44,338 nucleotides of DNA from an uncultured Thiotrichales bacterium (GTDB taxonomy: Bacteria > Pseudomonadota > Gammaproteobacteria > CAZUMV01), in NCBI GenBank assembly GCA_938041655.1, contig CALISW010000170.1:1-44338 (forward strand). The letters run 5' to 3'. The position numbers and the translations under genes are program-made. Below the pieces are notes generated by a model that worked only from the letters and a program-made list of their open reading frames with translations, made no database searches and was not told the origin of the DNA. Numbering within the stretch: the stretch's first letter is position 1; each line of letters begins with the position of its first letter. Positions 9,562 through 25,403 of the stretch are shown piece by piece.

Positions 9562-10587
9562 ATGTTAATTAGAATTTTAATCACTCTGTTGGTTTTAAGT
9601 TCTCCTGTTACTCAGGCTGGCTGGTATGAAGTTGATACCACGCTGATGGGAACAGACGTGCATGTCTCTGCCTGGCACAAGCATGATCAACAGGCGCAGA
9701 AAGCAGTCGAGAGCGCGTTAACAGAAATGCGTCGGATCAATGCCTTGATGAGCACCTATGAATCCAGTTCTGAATTGTCCTTACTCAATCGAGAAGCCTC
9801 TCAGCAGGCAACCGTTGTATCTGACGAATTGTTGCAATTGATCAACCGCTCTCTTGAGATTTCAAAAAGTACCCATGGTGCTTTTGATGTGACCTATGCA
9901 TCAATAGGCTATTTGTATGATTACCGGGCCGGTACCAAACCCGAAGACAAACGCATTCAGGCGCAATTACCTGCTGTAAACTACGAGCACGTTGTAATCG
10001 ATGAGCAGGCAAACACGGTTGCTTATTCACATCCAGGCGTTCGAGTGGATCTGGGTGGTATTGCCAAGGGCTATGCGGTTGATCGATCGATTGAGATCAT
10101 CAAGCAGCACGGGATAGAAAATGCAATCGTAACGGCTGGTGGCGATACGCGTGTCTTGGGTAAAAAACTGGATCGTCCGTGGGTGGTTGGCATACAAAAC
10201 CCGCGTTCCGAGAAAGATGTAGTTGCCGTTATTCCATTGGTGAATGAATCTATTTCTACCTCGGGTGATTATGAGCGTTATTTTGATGATGAGGGTATAC
10301 GCTACCATCATATTATCGATCCCCAAACCGGTGACTCAGCCCGCGAGGTTAGAAGTGTCTCTATTCTCGGGAAAGAAAGTACCTACGCCGATGCATTGTC
10401 GACCAGCCTGTTTGTGTTGGGTCTGGATTCGGGGATGCAGTTAATTAATACAATTCATGGCTATGAAGCCATTCTGGTTGACCAGGAAGGTCGACTTCAT
10501 TATTCAAGAGGTCTGCAGCAATTTGCTGAGCAAGACCAACAACACGATGCGCTGGCCGGGAAGGTTAGTCAACTCGTTAATCAGTGA
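9562..10587 (+). CDS. apbE: FAD:protein FMN transferase (ApbE), exported
   Basis: Transfers FMN from FAD to a Ser/Thr of target proteins in the periplasm, making covalently flavinylated redox proteins. 341 residues with a cleavable signal peptide (cut after SPVTQA) and no lipobox Cys, so probably soluble. Family motifs present: TLMGTDVHV, the MSTYESSSELSLLN segment, VDLGGIAKGYAVD, GGDTRVLG, HHIIDPQTGDSA and the metal-site region STYADALSTSLFVLG. First gene of the long operon; the ATG at 9562 has only a weak ribosome site. Its target is probably another operon product; the DUF3570 protein carries the best-matching motif seen. Confidence 0.94.
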   Translation: MLIRILITLLVLSSPVTQAGWYEVDTTLMGTDVHVSAWHKHDQQAQKAVESALTEMRRINALMSTYESSSELSLLNREASQQATVVSDELLQLINRSLEISKSTHGAFDVTYASIGYLYDYRAGTKPEDKRIQAQLPAVNYEHVVIDEQANTVAYSHPGVRVDLGGIAKGYAVDRSIEIIKQHGIENAIVTAGGDTRVLGKKLDRPWVVGIQNPRSEKDVVAVIPLVNESISTSGDYERYFDDEGIRYHHIIDPQTGDSAREVRSVSILGKESTYADALSTSLFVLGLDSGMQLINTIHGYEAILVDQEGRLHYSRGLQQFAEQDQQHDALAGKVSQLVNQ

Positions 10588-10603
10588 GATGGTGGTATTA
10601 GAT

Positions 10604-13411
10604 ATGAAAGCATTAAACAATAAAATTAAAACGTTGAGCCTGTTGGTACTAGTCACTTTGCTGGCTGCTTGTTACGGCGGTTCAGGTGACGGAAATGGAA
10701 ACGAAGTAGCACTCGATGGCAGTACTGTGGGTGAAAGTGACACTGATAGTGGTTCACTGGTGAATGCCGACTTCTCGATTGCCTATGTAGACAGATCAGT
10801 AGAGTCTGCTGGTAACCCAACTGATGGCATTATCTTTAACCCGGGTGGTGATCTGTTTGTGAAAGATTTGTCATCGCCGAATGCCACTGAAAAAAATATA
10901 ACTGGCGAATACACGCAAGGTGAAGGCGATGTCTCTGACCCTGAAGTGTCTTATGACGCGAAAACCTTGTTGTTCAGTATGCGTGGCGCTGAGGATGAGA
11001 CCTGGAATTTGTGGGAGTATGAGCTTGAAACCGAAGAGCTGACTCGGGTCATTGCTGATGATTTGCTGGCCGACGAAGGCGATGATGTTGATGCCGCCTA
11101 TTTGCCGGATGGTCGAATCGTGTTCAGCTCCAATCGCCAGGAAAAAAGCAAACAAATGCTGGCGGCAGAAAATAAAGAAACCTATGCCTATCTCGATGAA
11201 TATGAGCGAGAGCGAACGATCGCCTTGCACGTAGTTAATCAGGGACGTGATCAGGTAAAGCAAATCTCTTTTAACCAGAGCCATGATCGTAACCCGACCG
11301 TCTTGAGCAGTGGCGAGATCATGTACTCACGTTGGGATCATGTTGGTAACCGTAATCACTTCCCGTTATTTTTTACCAACCCTGACGGCACCAGTATGTT
11401 TGTCTTGTATGGTTCTTTCAGTCCGGGTAATTCTTTTCTGCATCCGCGTGAAATGCCGGACGGCAAAGTTATTTCGTCTTTGATGCCGTTATCAGGTACG
11501 GGCGAGGGTGGTGCGTTAGTGATCATCGATGTCGATAACTTTTCTGAAAATAATGAACCTTCACCTGAATATACCGGTGAAGACGAGCAAGGTCAGGTAA
11601 GCGCTACCTTGAATGAAATACCGATTGGTGAAGAAACCTCCGAATTCGGTCGTTACTCAACACCTTATCCATTATGGGATGGCACCAATCGAGTGCTGGT
11701 CTCATGGACTGCGGCGCAAGAGCCGGATGAAGATGACATGATGATGGGTGAAGATGGGCCGCCACGTTACGGCATCCATATGCTTAATCTCGATGACACT
11801 TCACTTCGTCCTATCGCGCTCGCTGCAGAAGGACGAATCCTGACTGACCCAATCGCCATATTCCCACGTGACTTACCCAATGTGGTAGCGGACAAAACTC
11901 TTGATGCTGACTTGATCGCCGAGAACGCAGGAATTCTTAATGTAAAAAGTGTCTACGACACAGACTTCCTCGACATCATGGGTGATCGGGTACTGACCAG
12001 TAGTGAAGTTATTCCTAAAGCTGATGATGTGGCCGACTTGTTAACTCTCAAGCAAGCGAGTGCCGCGTCAAGACCCGCCAGATTTGTTCGCGTCAGTCGC
12101 GCAGTACCAACACCACCAGGTGTAATGACCGAAGATGTTGGTAACAATGAGATGGAGATGCAGGAAATTCTTGGCTACAGCACGGTTGAACCGGATGGTT
12201 CGTTGCGCATAAAAGTACCGGCTGATACGCCACTGGCACTAGCAGTAGTCGATGCCAAAGGTCGTGCTTTACAATCACACACCAACTGGTTGCAAGTGCG
12301 TCCCGGTGAAACCAGAACCTGCAATGGCTGTCATTCGCCACGTCGTGGCAGCGCAATCAACAGTGCTCCGATCGCGGGCGACCATAGCGGCACCAATTTT
12401 GCCGGCATGGAAGCCTTGGGTGAGACTATGGCTGAAACCCGCACTCGACTCGATGTTGATAGTATGGCGTTGAAAGCGGATATCGAATACGAAGATATTT
12501 GGACTATGGCCGCGGATGTTCCGGATTTGGCCTTTAGTATCACGTATGCAAATCTGCAAACACCAGCGCCCGCTAACGGCATTATTAATTATGTCGATCA
12601 TATTCAACCGATTTGGGATTTACACAACTGTGGTGGTTGTCATACCGGCGCAAATGGTACCTTGGATTTAAACAGCACGACCTCGGCAACTGGCAGACTG
12701 GCTTCCTTTGAGCAATTAACTCTGGGTGTACCGGAGCTGGATGAGGATGGCTTACCTCTGACGCGAATCGAAGAAGGCGAAATCATGGTGGTGCGTGCAC
12801 CGGCATTGGTGGAAATGGGCTCTTCTGATGAAAGTTCGCGTACCAGTCATTTGATCGAAAAACTCTATCAAACCGAGCTGCGTGCGGAACAAGCGCTAAC
12901 CGCTACTACGGTGAATCATTCGGGTATCTTGAATGATTCAGAATTGCGCCTGGTACAGGAATGGATCGATATTGGCGCGCAGTATTACAACAGTCCCTAT
13001 GAGGACGATGCCGGTAATGACAATTTTTATGCGCTCAATGAGATACGTAACTTCCCGGTCGGGCTGGATGAAGATGTGTTCGAGTCAGCGGTGCAGCCGG
13101 TGTTACTCAATCGTTGTGGTGGTTGCCATAGTGCTGTGGGTAGTGAAGGCGAACAAAATACAAATTTCTCGGCGCGCAAATTTGTGCTGACCGGTAGCGT
13201 CGAAGGAGATTTCAACATCACCCGTTCTTTGGTGAATGATATTTGTAATCCACAAAACTCACAGTTGTTGATTATGCCGACTATCATTCAGCAGGGTATT
13301 CTTGTGCATCCTGCGGTGGAAGGTGCACCTGTGCTATCAAGCAACGAAAATGATTACCAGACAATTCTGGCATGGATAGAAGATGCAGCTGCGCTCAATA
13401 ATTGTCCTTAG
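10604..13411 (+). CDS. Tri-haem PD40/beta-propeller lipoprotein resembling hydrazine synthase alpha subunit
   Basis: A 935-residue exported protein. From the ATG at 10604 a signal peptide ends in lipobox LLAAC, followed by a Gly/Asp-rich spacer. Residues about 50-400 hold TolB/PD40-type repeats (SYDAKTLLFSMR, YLPDGRIVFSSNR, LSSGEIMYSRW). Three CxxCH haem c sites follow at residues about 573, 676 and 838 (12320-12334, 12629-12643, 13115-13129). The first lies in the PGETRTCNGCH context typical of hydrazine-synthase-alpha-like proteins. That resemblance indicates fold and haem attachment, not hydrazine chemistry. Likely an outer-membrane or periplasmic electron carrier or oxidoreductase. The frame extends upstream to 10457, but that part overlaps apbE and lacks a signal peptide. 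Confidence 0.82.
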   Translation: MKALNNKIKTLSLLVLVTLLAACYGGSGDGNGNEVALDGSTVGESDTDSGSLVNADFSIAYVDRSVESAGNPTDGIIFNPGGDLFVKDLSSPNATEKNITGEYTQGEGDVSDPEVSYDAKTLLFSMRGAEDETWNLWEYELETEELTRVIADDLLADEGDDVDAAYLPDGRIVFSSNRQEKSKQMLAAENKETYAYLDEYERERTIALHVVNQGRDQVKQISFNQSHDRNPTVLSSGEIMYSRWDHVGNRNHFPLFFTNPDGTSMFVLYGSFSPGNSFLHPREMPDGKVISSLMPLSGTGEGGALVIIDVDNFSENNEPSPEYTGEDEQGQVSATLNEIPIGEETSEFGRYSTPYPLWDGTNRVLVSWTAAQEPDEDDMMMGEDGPPRYGIHMLNLDDTSLRPIALAAEGRILTDPIAIFPRDLPNVVADKTLDADLIAENAGILNVKSVYDTDFLDIMGDRVLTSSEVIPKADDVADLLTLKQASAASRPARFVRVSRAVPTPPGVMTEDVGNNEMEMQEILGYSTVEPDGSLRIKVPADTPLALAVVDAKGRALQSHTNWLQVRPGETRTCNGCHSPRRGSAINSAPIAGDHSGTNFAGMEALGETMAETRTRLDVDSMALKADIEYEDIWTMAADVPDLAFSITYANLQTPAPANGIINYVDHIQPIWDLHNCGGCHTGANGTLDLNSTTSATGRLASFEQLTLGVPELDEDGLPLTRIEEGEIMVVRAPALVEMGSSDESSRTSHLIEKLYQTELRAEQALTATTVNHSGILNDSELRLVQEWIDIGAQYYNSPYEDDAGNDNFYALNEIRNFPVGLDEDVFESAVQPVLLNRCGGCHSAVGSEGEQNTNFSARKFVLTGSVEGDFNITRSLVNDICNPQNSQLLIMPTIIQQGILVHPAVEGAPVLSSNENDYQTILAWIEDAAALNNCP

Positions 13412-13901
13412 TATAAGTCTGTTTTTTGCCGCCTGTGAGGTGGTAGATTCAGTTGATGAGAATCTGGCTGTTACCGGACGCAGTTTGTGTTTGAGTGATT
13501 ATCAGATGTGCATTGATCCGATTTTTCATGCCAACCTGTTGGGTAGTAGCGGCATTATCAATTGTTCATCCAGTGGTTGTCATGACACTGGTGCTGGTTC
13601 GGGTGGTGGCTTTAAATTACACCCAACTCCGGCATTAAATTCCGAGCAAATGCGGTCCAATTTCTTTACCGCACAAGCGTTTGCCAATTTTACTGCGGCG
13701 GGTGATTCAAAGCTGGTGCTGGAGCCTCTGACCGGGACTTTTTCGATTACAGGTAGTCATGCTGGAGGAGATATTTTTATTGATCAGACCGATCCATGCT
13801 ACATCGCAATCATCGACTGGGTCTCAAAACAGGTGGCTGATGAAAATAGTGCTGCCTGCGGTGCCTGTACTCCACCGGTTCTCAGCGCCTGCGGCTACTA
13901 G
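13383..13901 (+). CDS. Small lipoprotein with a CX4CH haem-like motif
   Basis: 172-residue lipoprotein (lipobox FFAAC) starting 29 bp inside the end of the PD40 gene, so the two are translationally coupled. It contains one C-S-S-S-G-C-H motif (13563-13583), i.e. four residues between the cysteines rather than two. A CX4CH haem site is known in some multihaem cytochromes. Several more Cys (SLCLSDYQMCIDP, CYIAIIDWV, CGACTPPVLSACGY) could form disulfides. The end pattern DPCYIAIIDWV resembles the terminal segment of cytochrome-like domains in the preceding protein. Function unknown; it probably works with that protein. Confidence 0.75.
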   Translation: MQLRSIIVLSISLFFAACEVVDSVDENLAVTGRSLCLSDYQMCIDPIFHANLLGSSGIINCSSSGCHDTGAGSGGGFKLHPTPALNSEQMRSNFFTAQAFANFTAAGDSKLVLEPLTGTFSITGSHAGGDIFIDQTDPCYIAIIDWVSKQVADENSAACGACTPPVLSACGY

Positions 13902-13937: not shown

Positions 13938-14705
13938 ATGGACTTGAGATCTGTGGTCAGACTGATACAGCCAACAATATTTCTATTGTTGATCTTCATG
14001 CTTAATGTAGGTGCCGCCAATGCGGCTGAAGATCAGTATTTGCGCGTGCAAGTGACAGAGCCCTATCTGGAAATGTATACCGGCCCCGGGCGTGGCTTTC
14101 CGCGTTTCTATTCGGTAGAACGTGGTGAGTGGGTAGAAGTTATCAGCCGCAAGACAGACTGGTTTCAGGTCAGAACCCGCAAAGGTAAAAAGGGTTGGGT
14201 AAAAAGAGCTGAGTTGGAAAAAGCTCGGTCAATGAGTGGCTCACAGCTGGTCTTTGGTGGTAGTGGCGATGGCGACTTCCTGGGCCGTCGCATCGAACTG
14301 GGTTTTGTTACCGGTGTTTTGGAGGACGACCCGTTAATAGGTTTGCGAGCTGCCTGGTATTTGACTGATGGCATCGCACTGGAAGGTGCTTTTTCACATG
14401 TGCCGGGAGAATTCTCACGCTCATTTATTTATTCTGCCAATGTGGTGATGCAGCCCTATCCAGAGTGGAAATATTCTCCTTATGTCTCATTGGGTGCTGG
14501 CACCATAGAAAACGAGCCTAAAGCCACCTTGATTGGTGTGCGTGATACAGACGCTACAGTCTGGAGTGCAGCGCTAGGGGTGCGACGACAAATCTCTGGC
14601 AAGTTTATGTTCAGGCTTGAGGTCAGGGACCACCAGGCGCTGGTGAATTCATTCAATAATCAAAACCTGCTGGAGATCACAGCCGGTGTTTCATTCTTTT
14701 ATTAA
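13938..14705 (+). CDS. Outer-membrane beta-barrel protein with N-terminal SH3 domain
   Basis: 255 residues with a signal peptide (cut near ANAAEDQ). Residues about 35-95 form a bacterial SH3 domain (VTEPYLEMYTGPGRGFPRFYSVERGEWVEV..., then TDWFQVRTRKGKKGWV), often a peptidoglycan- or peptide-binding module. The rest (about 105-255) alternates polar and hydrophobic residues in strands and ends SFFY, fitting an eight-strand OM barrel of the kind shared by myxobacteria and gammaproteobacteria. It precedes a second barrel by 9 bp. The SH3 would lie in the periplasm and could tie the barrel to the wall or to the TPR scaffold. Confidence 0.78.
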   Translation: MDLRSVVRLIQPTIFLLLIFMLNVGAANAAEDQYLRVQVTEPYLEMYTGPGRGFPRFYSVERGEWVEVISRKTDWFQVRTRKGKKGWVKRAELEKARSMSGSQLVFGGSGDGDFLGRRIELGFVTGVLEDDPLIGLRAAWYLTDGIALEGAFSHVPGEFSRSFIYSANVVMQPYPEWKYSPYVSLGAGTIENEPKATLIGVRDTDATVWSAALGVRRQISGKFMFRLEVRDHQALVNSFNNQNLLEITAGVSFFY

Positions 14706-14714
14706 GGTGCTCAA

Positions 14715-15377
14715 ATGATAATAACTACAATCAGGCATGGGGTCGTTTCATTATTGCTGTTGATTTTGTGCTCACCCGTAGCTGTAGTCGCTGCAGAAGA
14801 GATAGAAGATTCACTCGAGGATGTCGAGCAAGTTGTCGTGCCTGAAATTTACCGGCGCGATGTTAAAGCCCCCAAAATTGATGCACGTGATTTCGAAGTA
14901 ACGGCTTATGTGGGTATTTTAAATATGGAGGATTTTGGCGCTAACGCAGTCGGTGGCTTACGCCTTGCTTATCATATTACTGAAGACTTTTTTATGGAGG
15001 CTGGCTTTGGCGCCTCTGAAATCAATGATGATTCGTTTCGACAATTTGGACTCAATGTTTTTCCATCATCACAAGAGTCACTTACTTATTACGATCTGAT
15101 GGTTGGCTACAACGTCTTGCCAGGTGAGTTTTTCTGGGGTGAAAATTATTCTATTCCCAGTGCGCTTTATGTCAGCGCTGGTGCCGGAAGTATGACTTTC
15201 GTGGATGAGGATTTTTTCACTGCCAATTTTGGTTTTGGCGTGCGTGCCCTGATTACCCAGGCGATCAGCGTGCATATAGATTTACGTGATCGGGTGATTT
15301 TTGATTCGGCCATTTTAGGTGATGAAAAAATCACCAATAATCTTGAGTTTACGATCGGTCTGGGCGTGTTTTTCTAG
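14715..15377 (+). CDS. Outer-membrane beta-barrel domain protein
   Basis: 220 residues: signal peptide (cut near VVAAEE), a short acidic stretch, then a barrel-like region from about residue 58 (FEVTAYVGILNMEDFGANAVGGLRLAYHITEDFFMEAGFGAS) to a terminal GVFF with aromatic final residue. The pattern matches the small OM barrels found beside AgmX/PglI-type proteins. It is a paralogue in shape to the preceding SH3-barrel. In the Agl/Glt comparison these two would take the place of GltA/GltB-type barrels; that is inference from context, not from sequence identity I can measure. Confidence 0.75.
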   Translation: MIITTIRHGVVSLLLLILCSPVAVVAAEEIEDSLEDVEQVVVPEIYRRDVKAPKIDARDFEVTAYVGILNMEDFGANAVGGLRLAYHITEDFFMEAGFGASEINDDSFRQFGLNVFPSSQESLTYYDLMVGYNVLPGEFFWGENYSIPSALYVSAGAGSMTFVDEDFFTANFGFGVRALITQAISVHIDLRDRVIFDSAILGDEKITNNLEFTIGLGVFF

Positions 15378-15389
15378 GAGGCCATACTT

Positions 15390-15917
15390 ATGAAAAAATT
15401 TACATTGAAACCAGCGTTACTTAAATACGGTTTATTGGTAATTATTTTACTGGCCCCAGCTATTGTTGCCGGAAAGTCATCTATGGTTGGTAAAGTCGGA
15501 CCTGATTTTGCAGGTTTAAGTTTTGACGGGTATTCACATCGTCTTGATGAGTTTAAAGGCAAAGTGATCATGATTAATTTTTGGGCCAGTTGGTGCGGCC
15601 CCTGCCGTCAGGAAATGCCGCCGCTGGAGCAACTTTATCAGCAGTATCGCAGCCTGGGCTTTGTGATTGTTGGCGTCAATGTCGATGAGAAGCTGGAGCC
15701 GGCAAAGAAAATGCTCGACAAGCTCGGTATTACTTATCCCAATGTTTTTGATAGCGATAATAATATTAGTAAAGGCTATAACGTTAGCGCCATGCCGATG
15801 ACAGTGATTATGGATACCACGGGAACAATCCGTTACGTCCATTACGGCTTCAAATCTGGTTACATGGATAAATACAGCCGCGAAGTGCGCCAGCTGTTAA
15901 CGGAGGCGCAACAATGA
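15390..15917 (+). CDS. TlpA/ResA-like periplasmic thiol-disulfide oxidoreductase
   Basis: 175-residue thioredoxin-fold protein with an N-terminal signal peptide or anchor (about 12-28). The active site WCGPC is at 15591-15605, cis-Pro in the AMPMTVIMD segment, and the preceding FKGKVIMINFWASW is typical of TlpA/ResA. It would reduce or exchange disulfides in the periplasm, e.g. keep haem-binding Cys of c-type cytochromes or the Cys tail of the next gene's product reduced. Excellent AGGAGG ribosome site at about 15376-15381. Overlaps the DUF4266 gene by 4 bp. Confidence 0.92.
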   Translation: MKKFTLKPALLKYGLLVIILLAPAIVAGKSSMVGKVGPDFAGLSFDGYSHRLDEFKGKVIMINFWASWCGPCRQEMPPLEQLYQQYRSLGFVIVGVNVDEKLEPAKKMLDKLGITYPNVFDSDNNISKGYNVSAMPMTVIMDTTGTIRYVHYGFKSGYMDKYSREVRQLLTEAQQ

Positions 15918-16150
15918 AGAAACTTTTTATAATAATTTGTCTGGGCCTGTTGGGCGGTTGTTCAAGTGTTGAGAAAGTACTTTCGCCAGAACCGTGGGTC
16001 ATGCCGTATGAGCGTGGTGAGTTGGCACAACCCATTATGCAGTTTAGTCGCAATCCGCTTTCCGACAAATTCAGGCAACACGTGTTTGATACCCGTGAAG
16101 GTGCACGTGGCGCCGGCGTAACCCAGGGTGGTGGTTGTGGCTGTAATTAG
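15914..16150 (+). CDS. DUF4266 lipoprotein with C-terminal Cys-Gly-Cys tail
   Basis: A 78-residue lipoprotein: signal peptide with lipobox LLGGC (Cys16), a PEPWVMPYERGELAQPIM core, SDKFRQHVFDTREGARGA, and a tail GGGCGCN whose two Cys codons are 16136-16138 and 16142-16144. The pattern fits the DUF4266 family; function unknown. The exposed CGC tail immediately after a TlpA-like gene suggests a thiol, metal or cofactor role. From memory, DUF4266 and DUF3570 genes commonly sit together near apbE; I could not check this. Its end overlaps the DUF3570 start. Confidence 0.82.
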   Translation: MKKLFIIICLGLLGGCSSVEKVLSPEPWVMPYERGELAQPIMQFSRNPLSDKFRQHVFDTREGARGAGVTQGGGCGCN

Positions 16151-17231
16151 ACACAGCAGTGTTATTTTGTTGTTGATGTTGCTCAACCTGGCAACAGCTG
16201 AAACCCTGCCAGAAGACATGGTGCAGTTGATGTACCACAGTTACGACGGTGGTGGTGTTGAAGTGAACGGGCCTGCCTTATTGGTACGCAAAGAATTCAA
16301 AGATCAGTTTTCGGTAAACGCCGGTTACTATCAGGATTCAATCAGCGGCGCTTCGCCAGATGTGATCGCTTCTGCCAGTCCTTATTCTGAAACACGTGAT
16401 GAATTCTCGCTGGGTGTTGATGCGCTGCTGGGAAACAGCCTGGTTTCATTGGGTTATATCAATAGTGATGAAGATGATTATGAAGGGAATAATTTCAGTT
16501 TTGGAATTTCACAAAGTTTCTTTGCGCAGATGACCACAATGAGTCTGGGTTATACGGTAGGACAGGATACGGTCAAGCGAGTAGATAACGACTTCGCTGA
16601 AGATATTGATCGTTATCAATTTAGCGTTGGTCTCACTCAGGTGCTTACCAGCACCATGCTGATGAACCTGACCGCGGAAGGTATTACCGAAGAAGGTTAC
16701 TTAAGTAATCCTTATCGCTCCAAACGGGTGTTTGGCACATTTGCCGGCTCCGAAATTTACCCGCGTACCCGCACCAGTACAGCTTTCGCGGTGCGACTGA
16801 AGAAATTACTCTGGAGCGACGATGCGGCATCAATCAGCTATCGCTATTTTGATGACAGCTGGGATATCGTCTCACACACACTCGAGTTGGGATTCACCAG
16901 AACCTTGAATAATCGCTCGGTCGCCGATCTGGTCTATAGATACTACGACCAAAGCGGTGCTTCATTCTTTAGCAGTGATTTTCAGGGATTGTTTCAATTT
17001 ATGGCGAGTGACAAGGAGCTCAGTACCTATCAAAGTCATACGATAGGATTGAATCTCACTTATGAGTTATTTAACGATTATTTATATGGCTTTGACCGTG
17101 GTGAGCTTGGTTTCGCCTATGATTTTAGAATGAACGAGTACGAAGATTATTTCGCGCCTAATTCTAGTAGCACAGAACCATACGAATTCGATGCAAATGT
17201 ATTCAATATAAATCTGTCACTATTTTACTGA
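16137..17231 (+). CDS. DUF3570 outer-membrane barrel with an ApbE-site-like motif
   Basis: Exported protein of 364 residues, rich in amphipathic strands and ending NINLSLFY with an OM-type terminal aromatic. I chose the GTG at 16137 (preceded by AGGGTGG), which gives a normal signal peptide cut before ETLPEDM; it overlaps the DUF4266 gene by 14 bp. Near the N-terminus YYQDSISGASPD contains D-x-x-S-G-A-S (16335-16355), close to the ApbE modification consensus D-x-x-[ST]-G-A-[ST]. A second SGAS follows a tyrosine-rich segment later (DQSGASFF). Function unknown. A flavin-bearing barrel is an inference to be tested. Confidence 0.8.
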   Translation: MAVIRHSSVILLLMLLNLATAETLPEDMVQLMYHSYDGGGVEVNGPALLVRKEFKDQFSVNAGYYQDSISGASPDVIASASPYSETRDEFSLGVDALLGNSLVSLGYINSDEDDYEGNNFSFGISQSFFAQMTTMSLGYTVGQDTVKRVDNDFAEDIDRYQFSVGLTQVLTSTMLMNLTAEGITEEGYLSNPYRSKRVFGTFAGSEIYPRTRTSTAFAVRLKKLLWSDDAASISYRYFDDSWDIVSHTLELGFTRTLNNRSVADLVYRYYDQSGASFFSSDFQGLFQFMASDKELSTYQSHTIGLNLTYELFNDYLYGFDRGELGFAYDFRMNEYEDYFAPNSSSTEPYEFDANVFNINLSLFY

Positions 17232-17249: not shown

Positions 17250-17975
17250 ATGGATGTTGTGAAAACATATCTTTCGCTATTACTGTGGGTGCTCATCCTA
17301 AGCACACCATTAGTAGCAGAGGAAGCCGCTGAAATAGATGATCCTGAGGCAGGCACGTATTTAATCGATGAGTCTGAATCGCAGGTTATTCTGGATGGAG
17401 AGTTAACCCCTGAAGGACAGCGTGCAATGCAAGAGGCGCGTGAAAGGGGTGAGTTACCAAACACAAATGCGGAGACTGTCGAGACCAATGCCGCTGATGC
17501 CAAATTAATGGATGAGATGCCGGAACTGGCTGCGCGCGGTCTGGATGAAGAAGTGCAGTCACTTAAGGAAGAAGTGCTGATTCTTAATCGCGAGTTGTTT
17601 TCGCTGGAAGAAGAATTGCTGTTTCCATCCAATACCCAGTTTGCCGTCTATGTTTCGGTAGACGTTGGCGAATTTTTTGACATGGAGTCGGTGCGCGTAT
17701 TAATGGATAACAAACCGATTGCCAGCTATCTCTACACCAAGCGTGAATCAGATGCCTTGATGCGTGGTGGCGTGCACCGGATTTATATAGGCAACCTGAC
17801 GGCGGGTAGTCATGAACTGGTTGCGTTTTATACCGGTCGTGGTCCACGTGGTCGTGATTTCAAACGGGCGACCAAGCGCACTGTCAATAAAGAGCTTGGC
17901 CCCAAGTACGTTGAACTAAAAATTGCCGATAACCAGGGCAAAAAACAAGCAGGATTTGAAGTTAAGGAATGGTAG
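17250..17975 (+). CDS. Periplasmic coiled-coil protein of unknown function
   Basis: 241 residues with a signal peptide (cut near LVAEE). An acidic region (about 24-90) precedes a heptad-like coiled coil (about 98-124, EEVQSLKEEVLILNREL...). The C-terminal domain (about 128-235) is beta-rich, with AVYVSVDVGEFFDMESVRVLMD, a basic RGPRGRDFKRATKR segment and a final VELKIAD strand pair, looking like an Ig- or carbohydrate-module-like fold. I do not recognise a named family. Starts 18 bp after DUF3570 and ends 16 bp before the first TPR gene. Position between barrels and TPR scaffold suggests a linker or adaptor. Confidence 0.7.
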   Translation: MDVVKTYLSLLLWVLILSTPLVAEEAAEIDDPEAGTYLIDESESQVILDGELTPEGQRAMQEARERGELPNTNAETVETNAADAKLMDEMPELAARGLDEEVQSLKEEVLILNRELFSLEEELLFPSNTQFAVYVSVDVGEFFDMESVRVLMDNKPIASYLYTKRESDALMRGGVHRIYIGNLTAGSHELVAFYTGRGPRGRDFKRATKRTVNKELGPKYVELKIADNQGKKQAGFEVKEW

Positions 17976-17991
17976 CCGCCATTTAGCCACT

Positions 17992-19890
17992 ATGAGATTT
18001 ACACGCCAACTTTTGTTGCTTGCAACATGCGTGCTGTTCAGTGCAGCCGCATCTGCAGCAGATGAGCCGGGACCAGAAGACATCATTCTGGATTTACCCT
18101 ATGGCGTAGTTTTGTTTGATTTTTATCAGCAAAATTATTTCACTTCGCTGGTTAACCTGATCAAAGCTCAGAAAGATGACACAGTGCCACAGCACGAAGC
18201 TGAAGCAGAATTGCTGCGCGGCGGTTTATATCTTTCTTATGGTATGCGCGGGCGCGCCGAAGAGATTTTTAAAAATGTTCTTGATATAGAGCCACGTCAG
18301 GACGTCAAGAATAGAGCCTGGTACTACTTGGCGCGTATCGCGTATCAGCGTGGCCTGCCAGAAAATGCACTGTCTTATCTGAGCAAAATCAGAGGTGAGT
18401 TGCCCGATACTCTGGTGGGTCGTGACCAGTTAATGGCGGCGATCATCAATATTCAGCAAGGCGACTTTCTGGACGCCTACAGTGGTTTATCAGACTGGGA
18501 AGGTGAGACCGATATTAAACACTACGTGGAATATAACCGCGGGGTGGCAGCACTAAGACTTGGTGATACTGATAAAGGCACCGACATACTCGATCTGTTA
18601 GGCCGTCAAAAATTCGGCAGTGAAGAATTTGAATTACTGGCATTGAAAGACCGAGCCAATCTCGCGGTAGGGATGCACTTGCTGCGTGAAGAGAGCCCGG
18701 AAAAAGCGCGTTTTTATCTGGACCGCGTACGTCTTAACGGGCCTTTTGCCAATGAGGCTTTGTTGGCAGCGGGTTGGGCTGATGCGCGCAATGAATTCTA
18801 TCAACCGGCGATGATTCCATGGAATGAACTGGCCAGTCGTAATGTACTCGACCCGGCGGTGCAGGAATCCTTATTTGCTATTCCTTATGCAATGGCTAAA
18901 GCAGGTGGTTTTGCACAAGCGGCGGCGGGTTATCAGCAAGCGCTGGATATTTTCCGAGCCGAGCAAGAAAAACTCAAAGCCGGAATTGAGCTGGTAAAAG
19001 AGGGCGGTTATCTGGACGATTTGCTGAGCAGTGCCGAAAAAATTGAAATGGGTTGGCTGCGCGAACTGAAGGTTGTAAATGAGGCACCTCAGCCGTGGTA
19101 CCTGGATGAACTGTTGTCCTCGCATCGGGTACAAGAGTCATTGAAGAATTATCGTGATCTGTTGTTTCTGGATTACAATCTGACAACCTGGGATGAGTCG
19201 ATCGATAGTTTTGATGAAATGCTGACTTTGCGAGAACGTCGATTTGAGACGGTAGTACCCTCGGCGCAGACAAAGTTATCGGATAACGAGCAGGAAAACC
19301 TGCAAAACAAGTTTGCACTATTGAACCAGCTGTATCTGAGTGCCTCTGAAAAAGAGAAGTTACGTTTGCTGGCAACGCCGGCCGAGTTAAAGAAGTTGCA
19401 GCGCTTGGATAAATTACAGCAATTGATTTCAAAACACCCCAATGCAAGAGCGCACGCTTACTTGTTGGGTAGGGTGGATTTTCTGAAGGGAATACTATTT
19501 TGGGATATCTACAACACCCTTGAAAAGCGGGAAAGAAAATCCGGCCGTGCATTGCAGGACCTTGAAACAGAGTTTGAGCAAAGCAGGGAGTTTATCGCAA
19601 GCATCAATCGTTTGATGGCAGATCTGCCTGCCGGGTTCGAAGGTTTTGCAGAAAAAATCCAGGCCAAGCGCTCAGATTTAAGTGGTGCGCGTGAAAAGCT
19701 GGAGACTGTTACGCAAAAGCAAAAAGCACAATTGACCGAGGTTGTGGTGGGTGAGTTGGAGCAACATGTCGCCAGAATTGATGAATTGAAATTACAGGCG
19801 GCTTTTGCATTAGCACAGATCTATGATCAGGATAGTGAAAAAGAAGAGGATGATGACAAGCCTCAAAATAACCGTGGAGTAGCCAGATGA
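17992..19890 (+). CDS. Exported TPR-repeat scaffold protein 1
   Basis: 632 residues. From the ATG at 17992 a signal peptide is cut near ASAADEP; the frame extends upstream to 17923 but overlaps the previous gene and would bury the signal. TPR-like helical repeats are clear at about 65-170 (AEAELLRGGLYLSYGMRGRAEEIFKNVL, AWYYLARIAYQRGLPENALSYLSKI) and around 290-330. The C-terminal 150 residues are coiled-coil-like, ending QAAFALAQIYDQDSEKEE. Probably periplasmic. In the Agl/Glt comparison it would correspond to a GltC/GltD-type TPR protein. Stop overlaps the next ATGATG. Confidence 0.8.
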   Translation: MRFTRQLLLLATCVLFSAAASAADEPGPEDIILDLPYGVVLFDFYQQNYFTSLVNLIKAQKDDTVPQHEAEAELLRGGLYLSYGMRGRAEEIFKNVLDIEPRQDVKNRAWYYLARIAYQRGLPENALSYLSKIRGELPDTLVGRDQLMAAIINIQQGDFLDAYSGLSDWEGETDIKHYVEYNRGVAALRLGDTDKGTDILDLLGRQKFGSEEFELLALKDRANLAVGMHLLREESPEKARFYLDRVRLNGPFANEALLAAGWADARNEFYQPAMIPWNELASRNVLDPAVQESLFAIPYAMAKAGGFAQAAAGYQQALDIFRAEQEKLKAGIELVKEGGYLDDLLSSAEKIEMGWLRELKVVNEAPQPWYLDELLSSHRVQESLKNYRDLLFLDYNLTTWDESIDSFDEMLTLRERRFETVVPSAQTKLSDNEQENLQNKFALLNQLYLSASEKEKLRLLATPAELKKLQRLDKLQQLISKHPNARAHAYLLGRVDFLKGILFWDIYNTLEKRERKSGRALQDLETEFEQSREFIASINRLMADLPAGFEGFAEKIQAKRSDLSGAREKLETVTQKQKAQLTEVVVGELEQHVARIDELKLQAAFALAQIYDQDSEKEEDDDKPQNNRGVAR

Positions 19891-22679
19891 TGAATTTGCT
19901 ACGACACGCGTTAGTGGTGCTCATCCTGTCTTTGACGCTTTCCGCCTGCGGCACCATGAGCAATATGATAGCCAAGGGTGATAAGTCGCCAACCTTGAGT
20001 GATCTGTATGATCGCCCGGTCCCGGTGATCGATGAACAGCCCATCGCCAAAAGTCGTGAGCTGGCAGAGCAATCTTACCGGCAAATGCTGGATCTGGATG
20101 AAGGTTCAGCCATGCGCCCGGAAGCGTTGCGTCGTCTGGCTGATATATTGTCTGACGTTAATGCGATCATGAATGATGATGATGAGCTGGATGAGGTAGC
20201 GCTGGCTGAGGCGACCGGTTTGTACAATGAAGCGCTGGAAAAATATCCTGACTATCGTTCGCGCGACAAAATTCTCTATCAACTCGCTCGAATTAATGAT
20301 CAAAATGGCGATCCGGATAAATCACACCAGTATTTGAACGATTTGGTCGAGCAGTATCCGGAATCCGAATACTTACAAGAAGCCCAGTTCCGACGTGGCG
20401 AGTACCTGTTCATTGAAAAAGAATATACCAGTGCACAAAACGCCTATGAGTCGGTGATTGAGATCGATACGAAAACAAAATTCTACGAGCCGGCGCTCTA
20501 TAAAAAGGGCTGGGCATTGTTCAAGCAGAATGAATATGAACTGGCGGTAAATGAGTTCACTACGATACTGGACCGGCGTGTAGCCAATGGTCAACGTGAT
20601 CTGGAAAAATTATCCCGTCCACAACGCGAGCGTATTGAAGATTCGCTGCGAGCGATCAGCTTAAGCTTCGTCTATCAGGAAGGCGCTGACACCGCGCTGG
20701 AATATTTCACCAAATACGGCGCCAAAAAATATGAGGAGCTGGTGTACGTCAAGCTGGCAGAATATTACATTGATAAAGAACGCTATACCGATGGTGCGGA
20801 AACATACGCAGGCTTCCTGCAGCGTAATCCCTGGCATGAAAATGCGGCTGATTTTCAGGCACAGGTTATAGCGACCCTCAAAGAAGGCAATTTCCCGACC
20901 TTGGAACTGGAGGCTCGTAAAGAGTTTGTCACCTTGTTTGATGTGGAGTCAGAGTATTGGGAATATTATCCGATAGGCGATAATGATCACATTGTGGATG
21001 AAGTGAAAACCAATATTGTTGATTTGGCGAATCATTATCAATCACTGGCACAAAAAGACAGTAACAACGAAGACTATCTGGAAGCCGAGACTTGGTACAA
21101 ACGCTTCCTGAGTTCATTTCCCAAAGACGAAAAAGCACCCGAAATAAATTATTTGCTGGCTGAATCGTATTACCAGAACGAACGTTATCTGGAGTCAGCG
21201 CAGGCGTATGAGCAGGTTGCCTATGAGTATGAAGCGCACCCGAAAGCATCTGAAGCAGGTTATGCAGCCTTGTTGGCCTATCAGGAAGTGGCCAAGTCGA
21301 ATACCAGCGCGTCAGATCCAAAAGTCGGTGATGCTTTTGCTGCCAGCGCCATACGTTTCGAAAAAGCATTCCCTGGTCATCCCAAGGCTGATGAGGTTTT
21401 GGTTAGTGTGGCACAGACCCAGTTTGATGAGCGTAATTATGATCAGGCGATGAAGATTGCGGAACGCTTGTTGAATAAAGATCCAAAGCCAAGTGCGGAA
21501 AATCGCAAAATCGTCTGGACCATTGCTGCCAATACCCAGTTTGAGCGTAAAGCTTATGAAGAGGCTGAAATTGGTTATAGCCAGGCCATAGCCCTGATGG
21601 AGCCGACCGACCCGCTAAAATCAGATTTGACCGAAAACCTGTCGATTGCCGTGTACCGTCAGGGTGAAGCGGCGCGTGATGCTGGTAAAACCCAGGCGGC
21701 TATTGATGCCTTCCTGCGTGTTGCTGCTGTCGCTCCGGGTACTGAAGCGGCGGTCACCGGACAATATGATGCGGCGGTGATATATATAGGTGACAAGAAA
21801 TGGCGCGAAGCAATTCCGATCATGGAATCTTTCCGGGTCAGTTATCCGGGTCATGAGTTGCAGACTGAAGTCGATAAAAATCTGGCTACGGCGTATCTTG
21901 AAACCGACCAGCCAGTTAAGGCTGCGGCCGAGTTCCAGCGTCTGGCACAAACCGGTGAAACAGAAGAGATCCGGCGAGAGGCAATTTTGCAGGCCTCGGA
22001 TTTGTACGCCGAAGGTGGGGAGAACAACCGCTCCATCGCCATGCTTGAACAGTTTGTTAATGACTTCCCAACTCCGGCAGAGCCTGCGATGGAAGCAGCC
22101 TCAAAACTGGCGACTCATTATGAGAAATTATTTGGTCCTCAAGGTGCTTATACCTGGCATGAAAAAGTGCTTGAGTTGAACCGTGGCGGCGGTGCCAATG
22201 ATAGAACTCGTTATTTAGCGGCTAAGTCTACCCTAGCACTGGTTAAGCCAGCGGTAGATGCCTATCAGAGCGTTGCACTAGTGGCGCCATTGAAAGACAC
22301 ATTGCGCCAGAAAAAAGAATTGATGGAAGCGGCGCTGGCAAAATATGCAGATCTTTCGAGTTTTGGAATAGCCGAGATATCAACCGAAGCGGCTTATCAG
22401 ACAGGATTTATCTACGATGATTTCTCGGAAGCCATCATGGACTCGGAACGTCCTGCCAATCTTGATGCTGACGCGCTTGAAGAATACGAGATATTGCTGG
22501 AAGAGCAAGCCGATCCGTTTCTGGAAAATGCTATTGAAGCGCATGAGGTTAACGTCGGTCGTATCAATGAAAATATTTATGATGAGTGGGTCAAAAAGAG
22601 TTTGGCGGATTTGAAAAAGTTATTGCCCGCCCGTTACAACAAAGAGGAGCGAACCAGTGCCGTTATCCGTGTTCACTAA
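19887..22679 (+). CDS. Large TPR-repeat lipoprotein 2
   Basis: 930-residue lipoprotein (lipobox LSAC after a 20-residue signal). Repeats of TPR/BamD-YbgF type run through most of the chain: YNEALEKYPDYRSRDKILYQLARI, KSHQYLNDLVEQYPES, AQNAYESVIEI, AETWYKRFLSSFPKDEKAPEINYLLAESYYQ, and later AIDAFLRVAAVAPGT. It therefore forms a long superhelical periplasmic scaffold, most likely held at the outer membrane. Starts by overlap with TPR1 and overlaps the next gene by 23 bp. Giant TPR proteins (GltD/AgmU, GltI/AgmK) are part of the Myxococcus gliding machine, which is the closest functional comparison. Confidence 0.85.
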   Translation: MMNLLRHALVVLILSLTLSACGTMSNMIAKGDKSPTLSDLYDRPVPVIDEQPIAKSRELAEQSYRQMLDLDEGSAMRPEALRRLADILSDVNAIMNDDDELDEVALAEATGLYNEALEKYPDYRSRDKILYQLARINDQNGDPDKSHQYLNDLVEQYPESEYLQEAQFRRGEYLFIEKEYTSAQNAYESVIEIDTKTKFYEPALYKKGWALFKQNEYELAVNEFTTILDRRVANGQRDLEKLSRPQRERIEDSLRAISLSFVYQEGADTALEYFTKYGAKKYEELVYVKLAEYYIDKERYTDGAETYAGFLQRNPWHENAADFQAQVIATLKEGNFPTLELEARKEFVTLFDVESEYWEYYPIGDNDHIVDEVKTNIVDLANHYQSLAQKDSNNEDYLEAETWYKRFLSSFPKDEKAPEINYLLAESYYQNERYLESAQAYEQVAYEYEAHPKASEAGYAALLAYQEVAKSNTSASDPKVGDAFAASAIRFEKAFPGHPKADEVLVSVAQTQFDERNYDQAMKIAERLLNKDPKPSAENRKIVWTIAANTQFERKAYEEAEIGYSQAIALMEPTDPLKSDLTENLSIAVYRQGEAARDAGKTQAAIDAFLRVAAVAPGTEAAVTGQYDAAVIYIGDKKWREAIPIMESFRVSYPGHELQTEVDKNLATAYLETDQPVKAAAEFQRLAQTGETEEIRREAILQASDLYAEGGENNRSIAMLEQFVNDFPTPAEPAMEAASKLATHYEKLFGPQGAYTWHEKVLELNRGGGANDRTRYLAAKSTLALVKPAVDAYQSVALVAPLKDTLRQKKELMEAALAKYADLSSFGIAEISTEAAYQTGFIYDDFSEAIMDSERPANLDADALEEYEILLEEQADPFLENAIEAHEVNVGRINENIYDEWVKKSLADLKKLLPARYNKEERTSAVIRVH

Positions 22680-23292
22680 AGTTTGTCTCGCTTTGACGCT
22701 GTTTTTTTTGGTAGCTTGTGAAAGCATGCCTTCGTTACCGGGGTCTGGTGGTAATAAAGAAAGTACGGTCAAAATACCTGGTGGGGTTAAGTCTCCACTC
22801 GGTGATGAAGCGACGCTGACGCCAGCTGATCAAGCCATCATGCTCAGGGCAGTGGCAGCTATGGATGCAGGTAATTACGCGGTCGCCATAACTGAATTTA
22901 AAGCACTGTCGGTCAGTAATCCGAAACTGGCAATGCCTTATATCAACCTGGCTATCGCTTATCGTACGCAAGCAGATAGTGATGCGGCGGTGCGCTCAAT
23001 TGCGCAAGCCTTGAAGTTGTCACCGAACAGTCCGGAAGCAAACAATATTCGCGGTGTGCTGTGGCGTGATGCGGGAGAATTTACCAAAGCCAGAGATAGT
23101 TACGCCAAAGCGATTGGCGCCAATGAAGCCTATCTGGATGCCCAGCTGAATCTGGGGATATTGTGTGATTTATATCTACAAGATCTGGCCTGTGCAAAAA
23201 AACACTATGAAAATTACCAGTCCGGAAGTAGTACCGAAGACCGCACGGTTAAAGGGTGGTTGATAGAACTTGAACGCAGGATGAAAAAATAA
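22657..23292 (+). CDS. TPR lipoprotein 3 (GltE/AglT-sized)
   Basis: 211-residue lipoprotein (lipobox LVAC) with three to four TPR units between about 60 and 185 (MDAGNYAVAITEFKALSVSNPKLAMPY, AVRSIAQALKLSPNSPEAN, KARDSYAKAIGANEAYLDAQLNLGIL). It has the GTG start at 22657 with a good AGAGGAG ribosome site, lying 23 bp inside the end of TPR2. Its size and design match small TPR lipoproteins such as GltE/AglT or PilF; PilF is less likely because no pilus genes are near. Its stop shares a base with the next ATG. Confidence 0.82.
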   Translation: MPLSVFTKVCLALTLFFLVACESMPSLPGSGGNKESTVKIPGGVKSPLGDEATLTPADQAIMLRAVAAMDAGNYAVAITEFKALSVSNPKLAMPYINLAIAYRTQADSDAAVRSIAQALKLSPNSPEANNIRGVLWRDAGEFTKARDSYAKAIGANEAYLDAQLNLGILCDLYLQDLACAKKHYENYQSGSSTEDRTVKGWLIELERRMKK

Positions 23293-23651
23293 TGGTTTTC
23301 AGAACCGTATTACAGTTTTTAGCACGATTGAGCTGTTTAATTATGCTCGGCTTACCGATAATATGCGTCGCTGCAGAAGAAGAGCCTGATGACAACCCGG
23401 CTCAGACAGAATATTTTGAAGAAGATGCTGTCCTGAATATGGATGGTATGGCTGTAACCGGTAATCAGGAATTGCCGAAATCTCTGATGATTGTGCCCTG
23501 GCAAGAGCCCGGTGCCGGAGATTTATTTGCAGGTGAATTTGAAAGCTTGATTGATCGGGATCCAGCTACGATTGATCGTACAGAATTTGTAAGAGAACTG
23601 GATTATTACCGCCTGCGTAAAGGTGAGTTTTTAGACCCCGAGAGAGATTAG
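23292..23651 (+). CDS. Small periplasmic protein of unknown function
   Basis: 119 residues with a signal peptide (cut near CVAAEEE), acidic N-terminal part, then VTGNQELPKSLMIVPWQEP and a C-terminal helix-rich RTEFVRELDYYRLRKGEF. No family recognised with confidence. The compact motif ELPKSLMIVPW looks like the conserved core of such a family. It lies between the TPR lipoprotein and the ExbB gene, the same place and size class as GltF in Myxococcus; that is a positional comparison only. Translationally coupled (1-bp overlap) to TPR3. Confidence 0.7.
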   Translation: MVFRTVLQFLARLSCLIMLGLPIICVAAEEEPDDNPAQTEYFEEDAVLNMDGMAVTGNQELPKSLMIVPWQEPGAGDLFAGEFESLIDRDPATIDRTEFVRELDYYRLRKGEFLDPERD

Positions 23652-23692
23652 TTGTAGCGGTAACACGAATAAGAGAATGGAGAACAAGAAAA

Positions 23693-24337
23693 ATGATTGA
23701 TACGGTATTTAAATTTTTTCAGGATGGTGGAGCATTTATGTTTCCAATCGCCATCGTACTTGCACTTGGCTTGGCTATTGCCGTAGAGCGCTGGATTTAT
23801 CTGACCCGCGCACGAGTCAGTAACTTGTTGCGCTGGCGTAAATTACAGCCGATGCTGGAGAAGGGTGAATTACGCTCAGCGTTAAATACTTCCAGTGGTT
23901 CAAACTCGGCAATTGATAAAATCCTCACCTACGGTTTGTCGCGTGCAGCCAATTCAACCAGCAGCGCTGAAGTAGAGATGGCGATGGAAGAGGGCTTGAT
24001 GGAAGTCATGCCGCGTTTGGAAAAAAGAACGCATTATCTTGCCACGCTGGCGAATATTGCGACCCTGCTAGGCCTATTGGGAACCATCATAGGTTTGATT
24101 AAAGCCTTTACCGCCGTGGGTGAAGCGAACCCGGCTGACAAGGCTGATTTATTATCAGCTAGTATATCGGTAGCGATGAACACTACCGCCTTCGGTCTGA
24201 TGGCGGGTATTCCGTTATTGTTATTACATGCCTTGCTCACGACCAAGACCACCACCGTAGTTGATAGTCTGGAAATGGCGACGGTCAGAATTATGAACAT
24301 GATCACTGGCCACTCTGCCAAAGCCAAGCAACAGTAA
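23693..24337 (+). CDS. MotA/TolQ/ExbB proton-channel protein
   Basis: Inner-membrane subunit of a proton-driven motor, 214 residues with three TM helices (about 14-35, 117-141, 155-183). Family motifs are clear: ERWIYL after TM1, LATLANIATLLGLLGTIIGLIKAF in TM2 and SISVAMNTTAFGLMAGIPLLLLH in TM3. It would form the ring around the ExbD dimer. AATGGAGA ribosome site. It is followed by two ExbD genes and a TonB-like gene, so all parts of an energised transmembrane motor are encoded together. AglR of Myxococcus is the best functional comparison; ExbB of iron transport is less likely because no TonB-dependent receptor is near. Confidence 0.93.
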   Translation: MIDTVFKFFQDGGAFMFPIAIVLALGLAIAVERWIYLTRARVSNLLRWRKLQPMLEKGELRSALNTSSGSNSAIDKILTYGLSRAANSTSSAEVEMAMEEGLMEVMPRLEKRTHYLATLANIATLLGLLGTIIGLIKAFTAVGEANPADKADLLSASISVAMNTTAFGLMAGIPLLLLHALLTTKTTTVVDSLEMATVRIMNMITGHSAKAKQQ

Positions 24338-24342
24338 TAAAT

Positions 24343-24897
24343 ATGTCACGACGTCGCAGGCATTCCCGCTACAAGCCGGATACCGAGCTTAACATTACCG
24401 CCTTTATGAACTTGATGGTGGTGCTAGTGCCATTCCTGTTATTGATGGCGGTGTTTACGCGCCTGACAGTCATAGAACTGGCGTTGCCTGGACCGTTGAC
24501 CGATGCAGAGCCTCCGGAAGATCCACCGATTGAGCTGGAACTCGTGATTCGTGAAAACCGTATCGATATTCAAGACCGAGGGTCAGCCTTGTTAGGAGAG
24601 TATCCCAGGGTTGATGGTAAGGATGACTTCAAACCTGTCATAGAGAAATTGCGTCAGGTAAAATCACAGTTCCCTGAGATCGTGACTGCCTCCATTCTGG
24701 CGGAAGACGATGTTCCTTATGACCGCATAGTCCAAGTCATGGAGGTCATGCGTAGCTACAATACTGAAGGGGAAGAGGGCATCATTCAGGAAGAGCTGTT
24801 TCCTGAAATCTCTTTAGGAAAAGCGACGGTGCTTGATTTGCCTGAAGGTGCTCGAGAAATTGTTCAGCCTTACGATACGAGTGAGGCGAGCCAATAA
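24343..24897 (+). CDS. ExbD/TolR-like protein 1 with Asn in place of the TM aspartate
   Basis: 184 residues: short basic cytoplasmic start (MSRRRRHSRY), one TM helix (about 20-44) and a periplasmic domain. Aligning NITAFMNLMVVLVPFLL with the E. coli ExbD segment VTPFIDVMLVLL puts Asn23 (codon AAC, 24409-24411) where ExbD has its essential proton-carrying Asp25. The periplasmic part begins ELALPGP and contains IQDRG...DDFKPVIEKLRQVKSQFPE and a VPYDRIVQVMEVMR helix typical of the family. The substitution suggests that this copy cannot carry protons and pairs with ExbD 2. Separated by 5 bp from ExbB. Confidence 0.9.
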   Translation: MSRRRRHSRYKPDTELNITAFMNLMVVLVPFLLLMAVFTRLTVIELALPGPLTDAEPPEDPPIELELVIRENRIDIQDRGSALLGEYPRVDGKDDFKPVIEKLRQVKSQFPEIVTASILAEDDVPYDRIVQVMEVMRSYNTEGEEGIIQEELFPEISLGKATVLDLPEGAREIVQPYDTSEASQ

Positions 24898-25403
24898 TGC
24901 GACAGTCCAGACGCGCCCGCCGTATGAGCATGCATCATGCTCGAGGAAAAAAGACCCCGGGTTTCAATCTGGTTTCTTTAATGGATATATTTACCATTCT
25001 GGTTTTCTTCTTGTTGGTTAACTCGCAGGAAGTACAAAAAATCCCACCGAACAAAGCCGTGCAGCTTCCAGAATCGAGTATCGATAATAAAACCGACGAT
25101 AGTCTGGTTATTACGATTACTAAAGATGCGTTGCTGGTTGATGGTGATCAAATCGCTACCCTGGAAGAGATTAAGGCTAGCGACTCGTTCGATATTCCTC
25201 AGCTGGTTGCTGCGATGGAAAGCGAGTATGGCAAAAAGCTGATAGCTACCGGTGAAGGCGATAAAACGCCGAAAGTCACCGTCATGGGTGACGGTAGTAC
25301 ACCCTATAATATGTTGCATCGTATTATGCAGTCATTCTCCGGTGTTGATGTAGAAAAGATTTCTATGGCGGTTATTCAGAAAGCTCCCGAGGCTAGCGAA
25401 TGA
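24897..25403 (+). CDS. ExbD/TolR-like protein 2 with conserved TM aspartate
   Basis: 168 residues with a long basic N-terminus (MRQSRRARRMSMHHARGKK), then GFNLVSLMDIFTILVFFLL, where Asp30 (24984-24986) matches ExbD Asp25. The periplasmic domain has VQLPES, a LVITITKDALLVDGDQIA strand pair and YNMLHRIMQSF. Overlaps ExbD 1 by one base and the TonB-like gene by 4 bp. As the only copy with the acidic residue, it is the likely proton acceptor of the motor. Confidence 0.92.
   Translation: MRQSRRARRMSMHHARGKKTPGFNLVSLMDIFTILVFFLLVNSQEVQKIPPNKAVQLPESSIDNKTDDSLVITITKDALLVDGDQIATLEEIKASDSFDIPQLVAAMESEYGKKLIATGEGDKTPKVTVMGDGSTPYNMLHRIMQSFSGVDVEKISMAVIQKAPEASE

Follow-up and report, generated by a model that had tools for sequence, protein, structure and literature searches.

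The closest described counterpart of the protein examined here is the DUF3570 protein of Chlorobium luteolum (ABB24424.1), which is flavinylated by its ApbE and for which covalent FMN has been proven (Meheust et al. 2021, eLife; PMC8238504). According to the same study, the DUF3570 proteins associated with ApbE carry two conserved [S/T]GA[S/T] motifs, the flavinylation of the C. luteolum protein is abolished only by Ser-to-Ala substitutions at both of them, and the genes occur in clusters that combine ApbE, thioredoxin, DUF4266, and DUF3570. Our literature search found DUF3570 or DUF4266 named nowhere besides this study, and a search on flavinylation together with outer-membrane barrels returned nothing.

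The motif recognized by ApbE is given in one review as D-x-x-[S/T]-G-A-[S/T], and the part of that review consulted here also describes a Gly-to-Ala change in fumarate reductase after which ~50% of the flavinylation remains (PMC12052999). To this extent, the published evidence allows relaxed ApbE motifs, and no report of a Gly-to-Ser change was found in the same part of the review. The NqrC/RnfG proteins with an FMN-binding domain share the enzyme family and the acceptor motif with the protein studied here, but have the PF04205 fold, whereas the latter is a beta-barrel without that domain. One other relevant system is the Glt/Agl core complex, the function of which in Gammaproteobacteria was unknown as of 2011 (Luciano et al. 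2011; PMC3169522).

The window, i.e., the whole stretch of DNA analyzed, comprises 44,338 nucleotides from an uncultured Thiotrichales bacterium. The DUF3570 matches found in its class fall into a full-length group (A) and a divergent group (B), which scores ~80-150 bits over profile positions ~100-385. Type A genes are arranged in a compact TlpA-DUF4266-DUF3570-ApbE operon, and type B genes, including those of the window, follow the order HZS-alpha-like, OMP1, OMP2, TlpA, DUF4266, and DUF3570, often then a TPR/ExbB/ExbD/TonB block; both DUF3570 types co-occur in some genomes. On sequence grounds, subfamily B is a divergent gammaproteobacterial branch of DUF3570 that has been little noticed so far, with named relatives that include Thiodiazotropha, Sedimenticola, tubeworm symbionts, Thioalkalivibrio, and Halothiobacillaceae. 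The features of the window are as follows.

9562..10587, + strand: apbE, FAD:protein FMN transferase of the B-type clade (PF02424, 288.7 bits)
10457..13411, + strand: HZS-alpha-like lipoprotein, three CxxCH motifs for haem binding (PF18582, 70.4 bits)
13383..13901, + strand: small exported protein containing CSSSGCH (ORF and motif; kept in part of the B operons)
13938..14705, + strand: OMP1, small outer-membrane barrel together with an SH3 domain (PF08239; TIGR04565/PF13505 below cut-off)
14715..15377, + strand: OMP2, OMP_myx_plus-type outer-membrane barrel (TIGR04565, 132.6 bits, cut-off 60)
15390..15917, + strand: TlpA/ResA-like periplasmic thioredoxin with WCGPC (PF00578, 90.3 bits)
15914..16150, + strand: DUF4266 small lipoprotein with C-terminal GGGCGCN (PF14086, 79 bits)
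16128..17231, + strand: DUF3570 of subfamily B, 16-strand outer-membrane beta-barrel and predicted ApbE substrate (PF12094, 144.8 bits)
16335..16355, + strand: site 1, DSISGAS, predicted FMN acceptor Ser76 (codon TCG, 16353-16355)
16359..16379, + strand: site 2, DVIASAS, with Ser84 (codon 16377-16379) as a candidate for the second FMN acceptor (conservation)
16953..16964, + strand: later SGAS (in DQSGASFF), outside the site, residues 276-279, chance match
17250..26386, + strand: p17250, three TPR proteins, p23292, ExbB, two ExbD, and a TonB-like protein, resembling a Glt/Agl core (profiles)

Like the clusters of Meheust et al. (PMC8238504), the window brings together ApbE, a thioredoxin-like protein, DUF3570, and a DUF4266 protein with a C-terminal CxC as partners, and, by published description, its DUF3570 resembles that of C. 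luteolum in belonging to the same Pfam family and having two acceptor motifs. Unlike the C. luteolum protein, that of the window belongs to the divergent subfamily B, with sites eight residues apart and a Gly that is often Ser in its relatives. Unlike the described clusters, the window has an ApbE of a separate clade and additional genes for an HZS-alpha-like protein and for barrels, and its run contains no DsbD; the genome has a single DsbD_TM gene at another location.

The CxxCH motifs of the HZS-alpha-like lipoprotein lie at residues 622, 725, and 887, where most relatives have two such motifs, the WCxPC of the thioredoxin is retained across the loci, and the CGC near the C-terminus of DUF4266 is found in 135/135 copies; OMP1 is also conserved across B operons. 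The CSSSGCH of the small protein next to the HZS-alpha-like lipoprotein was observed to be of the CxxxxCH type.

The downstream half of the run resembles the Glt/Agl core as described in PMC3169522, given that TPR proteins, a TolQ/TolR-like trio, and a TonB/GltG-like (or AgmX-like) protein are found in a single run, although the text of that account names neither a thioredoxin nor a cytochrome. The AgmX/PglI C-terminal domain (NF033768) scored 66.3 bits here (cut-off 40), and the GltE and GltJ models scored below cut-off. Such a block, with its genes in the same order, was found in about half of the B loci (37 of the 73 with sufficient flank), which include 22 of the 23 local apbE genes, and no earlier report linking a flavin barrel to Glt/Agl was found by a search of article texts, among them those of PMC8238504 and PMC3169522.

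The DUF3570 protein of the window passes the PF12094 gathering score of 25, matching mainly profile positions 104-383, and carries, as judged by eye, a signal peptide for export. Positions 16335-16355 (+) read GATTCAATCAGCGGCGCTTCG and encode D-S-I-S-G-A-S, residues 70-76 of the ORF at 16128-17231, so that translation confirms both the motif and the acceptor codon (16353-16355) which a sequence-only reading of this DNA had proposed. That reading had also placed apbE upstream, which agrees with the ApbE encoded on the same strand at 9562-10587, and had considered the DUF3570 protein the best match among the operon products. This protein indeed has the only full D-x-x-[ST]-G-A-[ST] in the 16 products downstream of apbE, none of the others scanned having one, where composition alone would give 0.03 matches in the 5,301 aa involved and 0.004 in the DUF3570 protein.

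A second SGAS, in DQSGASFF, had been pointed out as well, and is present at residues 276-279, but was ruled out as a second acceptor, given that S276, G277, and S279 vary among the homologues, unlike A278 and Q275, which are invariant. Of the loci inspected, just two, those of the window and of its genus mate, have the exact SGAS, which is a chance match, given the lack of conservation at the Gly and at both Ser positions. The second site that is conserved is the adjacent D78-VIASA-S84.

The conservation of both sites was assessed in 111 distinct subfamily B proteins, 110 of which were scored at site 1. In the latter, D70 (107/110), [ST]73 (108/110), A75 (107/110), and [ST]76 (108/110) are near-invariant, and residue 74 is Ser in 78 proteins, Gly in 26, and Ala in four, so that the invariance suggested as a check on the motif holds for the Asp, the Ala, and the final Ser, but not for the Gly, which is kept in only 26/110. 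Site 2 (D-x5-S, Asp78...Ser84) begins eight residues after site 1 and is conserved to at least an equal degree (D78 in 111/111, [AG]83 in 111/111, and S84 in 110/111). The window thus has one conserved canonical motif, with DVIASAS as the second conserved site, rather than two canonical [S/T]GA[S/T] motifs.

In a few loci, site 2 reads as TGAS or SGAS through a one-residue insertion (L067, L060, and L174) or as LGAS through a two-residue insertion (L088), and these insertions bring it near or back to the canonical acceptor motif. Site 1 was lost only in L083, L091, and L095, which represent two lineages; these loci have no DUF4266 ORF and their genomes (G019, G194, and G058) have no B-type ApbE.

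ApbE was present in all 39 B genomes searched. In a maximum-likelihood tree, all 30 ApbEs of B operons fell into one clade of 47 rows (SH-aLRT 99), the other 17 rows of which come from genomes where the B-type ApbE lies elsewhere, and this clade was separate from both the ApbEs of A operons and the remaining ApbEs, which are taken to be of the RNF/NQR type. ApbE proteins typically carry a lipoprotein signal; the N-terminus of the ApbE of the window reads as a Sec signal peptide with no lipobox cysteine, and B-type ApbEs generally seem to begin with a plain Sec signal peptide.

When a profile of the B-type ApbE was run on 274 genomes, with calls made at >=430 bits (the next score down being 364), 30 genomes were positive, 29 of them with a B DUF3570, one of which (G264) has its DUF3570 interrupted by a frame break. 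The B-type enzyme is found in 29/40 genomes with a B DUF3570 versus 1/234 without it (Fisher p ~6e-29, uncorrected for relatedness). The sole exception is G036, a complete genome with a B-type ApbE (L276, 9751-10812), no DUF3570, and no B-operon genes within ~10 kb.

The 11 B genomes without a B-type ApbE comprise three that are motif-less, one that is only 71% complete, and seven with an SSAS or SSAT motif. No fewer than seven genomes of fair completeness (G066, G079, G130, G180, G198, G205, and G207) thus keep the motif without this enzyme, and another ApbE would have to act there. The co-occurrence of the motif with apbE, which had been proposed as a check, was therefore found in the form of an ApbE in every subfamily B genome searched, mostly of the dedicated clade, with the loss of the motif tracking that of the clade and of DUF4266. 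Gly74 at first seemed to go together with a local apbE (11/15 against 12/58, Fisher p 0.0002), but this association was dropped, as it vanishes once relatedness is considered; the link is not claimed because independent pairs on the tree, of which there are only four, show no trend.

An AlphaFold2 model built from 46 B sequences predicts a 16-strand barrel (pLDDT 91.4, pTM 0.84), whose Foldseek matches are outer-membrane barrels (including PelB, PgaA, FadL, and OmpG), as expected of an outer-membrane beta-barrel protein. In this model, residues 70-74 close strand 3 and residues 75-86 form the loop between strands 3 and 4, so that the burial of the site in a strand, which would have spoken against flavinylation, is not predicted, with Asp70-Gly74 at the strand end and Ala75-Ser76 in the loop. 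The near-invariant residues of the loops and turns number 29 at the odd-even pole and 0 at the even-odd pole, and further invariant loops, NPYR (194-197) and DKELS (295-299), are found at the former.

As both termini of outer-membrane barrels are usually periplasmic, the odd-even pole would be extracellular, and both serines would thus lie in a conserved outward-facing loop at one end of the modeled barrel. Given that ApbE is periplasmic, either the flavin must be attached before the barrel is inserted or the topology must be unusual.

Taken as a whole, the near-invariant Asp, Ala, and final Ser, the matched ApbE, and the non-buried site support the earlier proposal of flavinylation, and DSISGAS is very probably a genuine ApbE flavinylation site within an operon-specific ApbE/DUF3570 scheme, with Ser76 as the likely acceptor and Ser84 a plausible one, at roughly even chances. 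Flavinylated DUF3570 proteins have been known since 2021, and the case is no new discovery in kind, since it was shown for a homologue in that year. What is established here, at the level of sequence and model, is the presence and conservation of the motif, the ApbE clade that goes with it, and the predicted barrel, and we infer the flavinylation of this protein, its electron partners, the direction of flow, and the side of the membrane.

In the proposed mechanism, the exported operon-specific ApbE would split FAD and attach its FMN half to Ser76 of the DUF3570 barrel, and Ser84 of the tandem copy DVIASAS would probably also take FMN, most likely before barrel insertion, because the loop would face outward while ApbE is periplasmic. 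Loop 3-4 would then hold one or two flavins at the conserved barrel pole, next to the NPYR and DKELS loops, where they may swap electrons with TlpA and the CGC tail of DUF4266, as thiol partners, and with the HZS-alpha-like haem lipoprotein. The DsbD_TM gene found elsewhere in the genome could supply TlpA.

Several observations count against flavinylation, namely that residue 74 is mostly Ser, that the seven genomes named above keep the motif without a B-type ApbE, that the loop would face away from a periplasmic ApbE, and that site 2 mostly lacks a canonical [ST]GA[ST]. The last of these, which applies to the window as well as to most members, favors a version in which Ser76 alone is flavinylated and the D78...S84 copy is structural, e.g., supporting the loop or binding the flavin phosphate. 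This is a real possibility, to which we give somewhat less than even chances, given that the conservation of site 2 equals or exceeds that of site 1, that four members have TGAS, SGAS, or LGAS there, and that the C. luteolum DUF3570 has two modified sites. The unconserved Gly74, together with the retention of the loop in some genomes without a dedicated ApbE, would also fit a conserved loop that is simply a structural or ligand-binding element, with the operon ApbE acting on something else. This appears improbable, as the motif is absent from all other products of the run, a DUF3570 homologue is an experimentally proven ApbE substrate, and the B-type ApbE is lost along with the motif.

It is also conceivable, if doubtful, that the D-x-x-S-S-A-S members without a B-type ApbE have lost flavinylation, which would then hold for the protein of the window and similar ones rather than throughout the subfamily. 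Within the class sample, a B-type ApbE is present in all genomes that keep Gly74 save one that is 71% complete, and the other motif-bearing genomes without this enzyme all have SSAS or SSAT; against this, the constraint on the Asp, the Ala, and the final Ser is the same, and the association of the Gly with a local ApbE disappears when relatedness is considered. That the match arose by chance in a Ser/Gly-rich barrel, as the other SGAS of the same protein indeed did, has practically no probability left, with 0.004 matches expected in this protein and near-invariance in 111 homologues; this explanation is refuted because the motif is conserved across them.

Compared with the homologue of 2021, what is new in subfamily B is a dedicated ApbE of its own, the tandem arrangement of its two sites, and a gene neighborhood that was not expected. 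A matched ApbE clade accompanies the subfamily, which would offer two separately mutable acceptors, and the natural Gly/Ser series at the motif could test the strictness of the ApbE motif. A flavin bound covalently to an outer-membrane barrel would place a redox cofactor at the boundary of the cell surface, with no multihaem conduit needed, and this redox module is genetically tied to the orphan Glt/Agl core of Gammaproteobacteria, a link seen, among others, in lineages named for sulphur oxidizers and in animal symbionts. On a more speculative level, and rather unlikely as a whole, subfamily B might form a trans-envelope redox machine in which the dedicated ApbE puts two close FMNs on the outward pole of the barrel and in which TlpA, the CGC lipoprotein DUF4266, and the haem lipoprotein feed the system, with coupling, in about half of the bearers, to a proton-driven Glt/Agl core.

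Finally, two loci (L068 and L077, in genomes G158 and G268) have an intermediate type of DUF3570, with an ApbE that branches beside the B-type clade and a DUF4266 that ends in CGCY, not CGCN.
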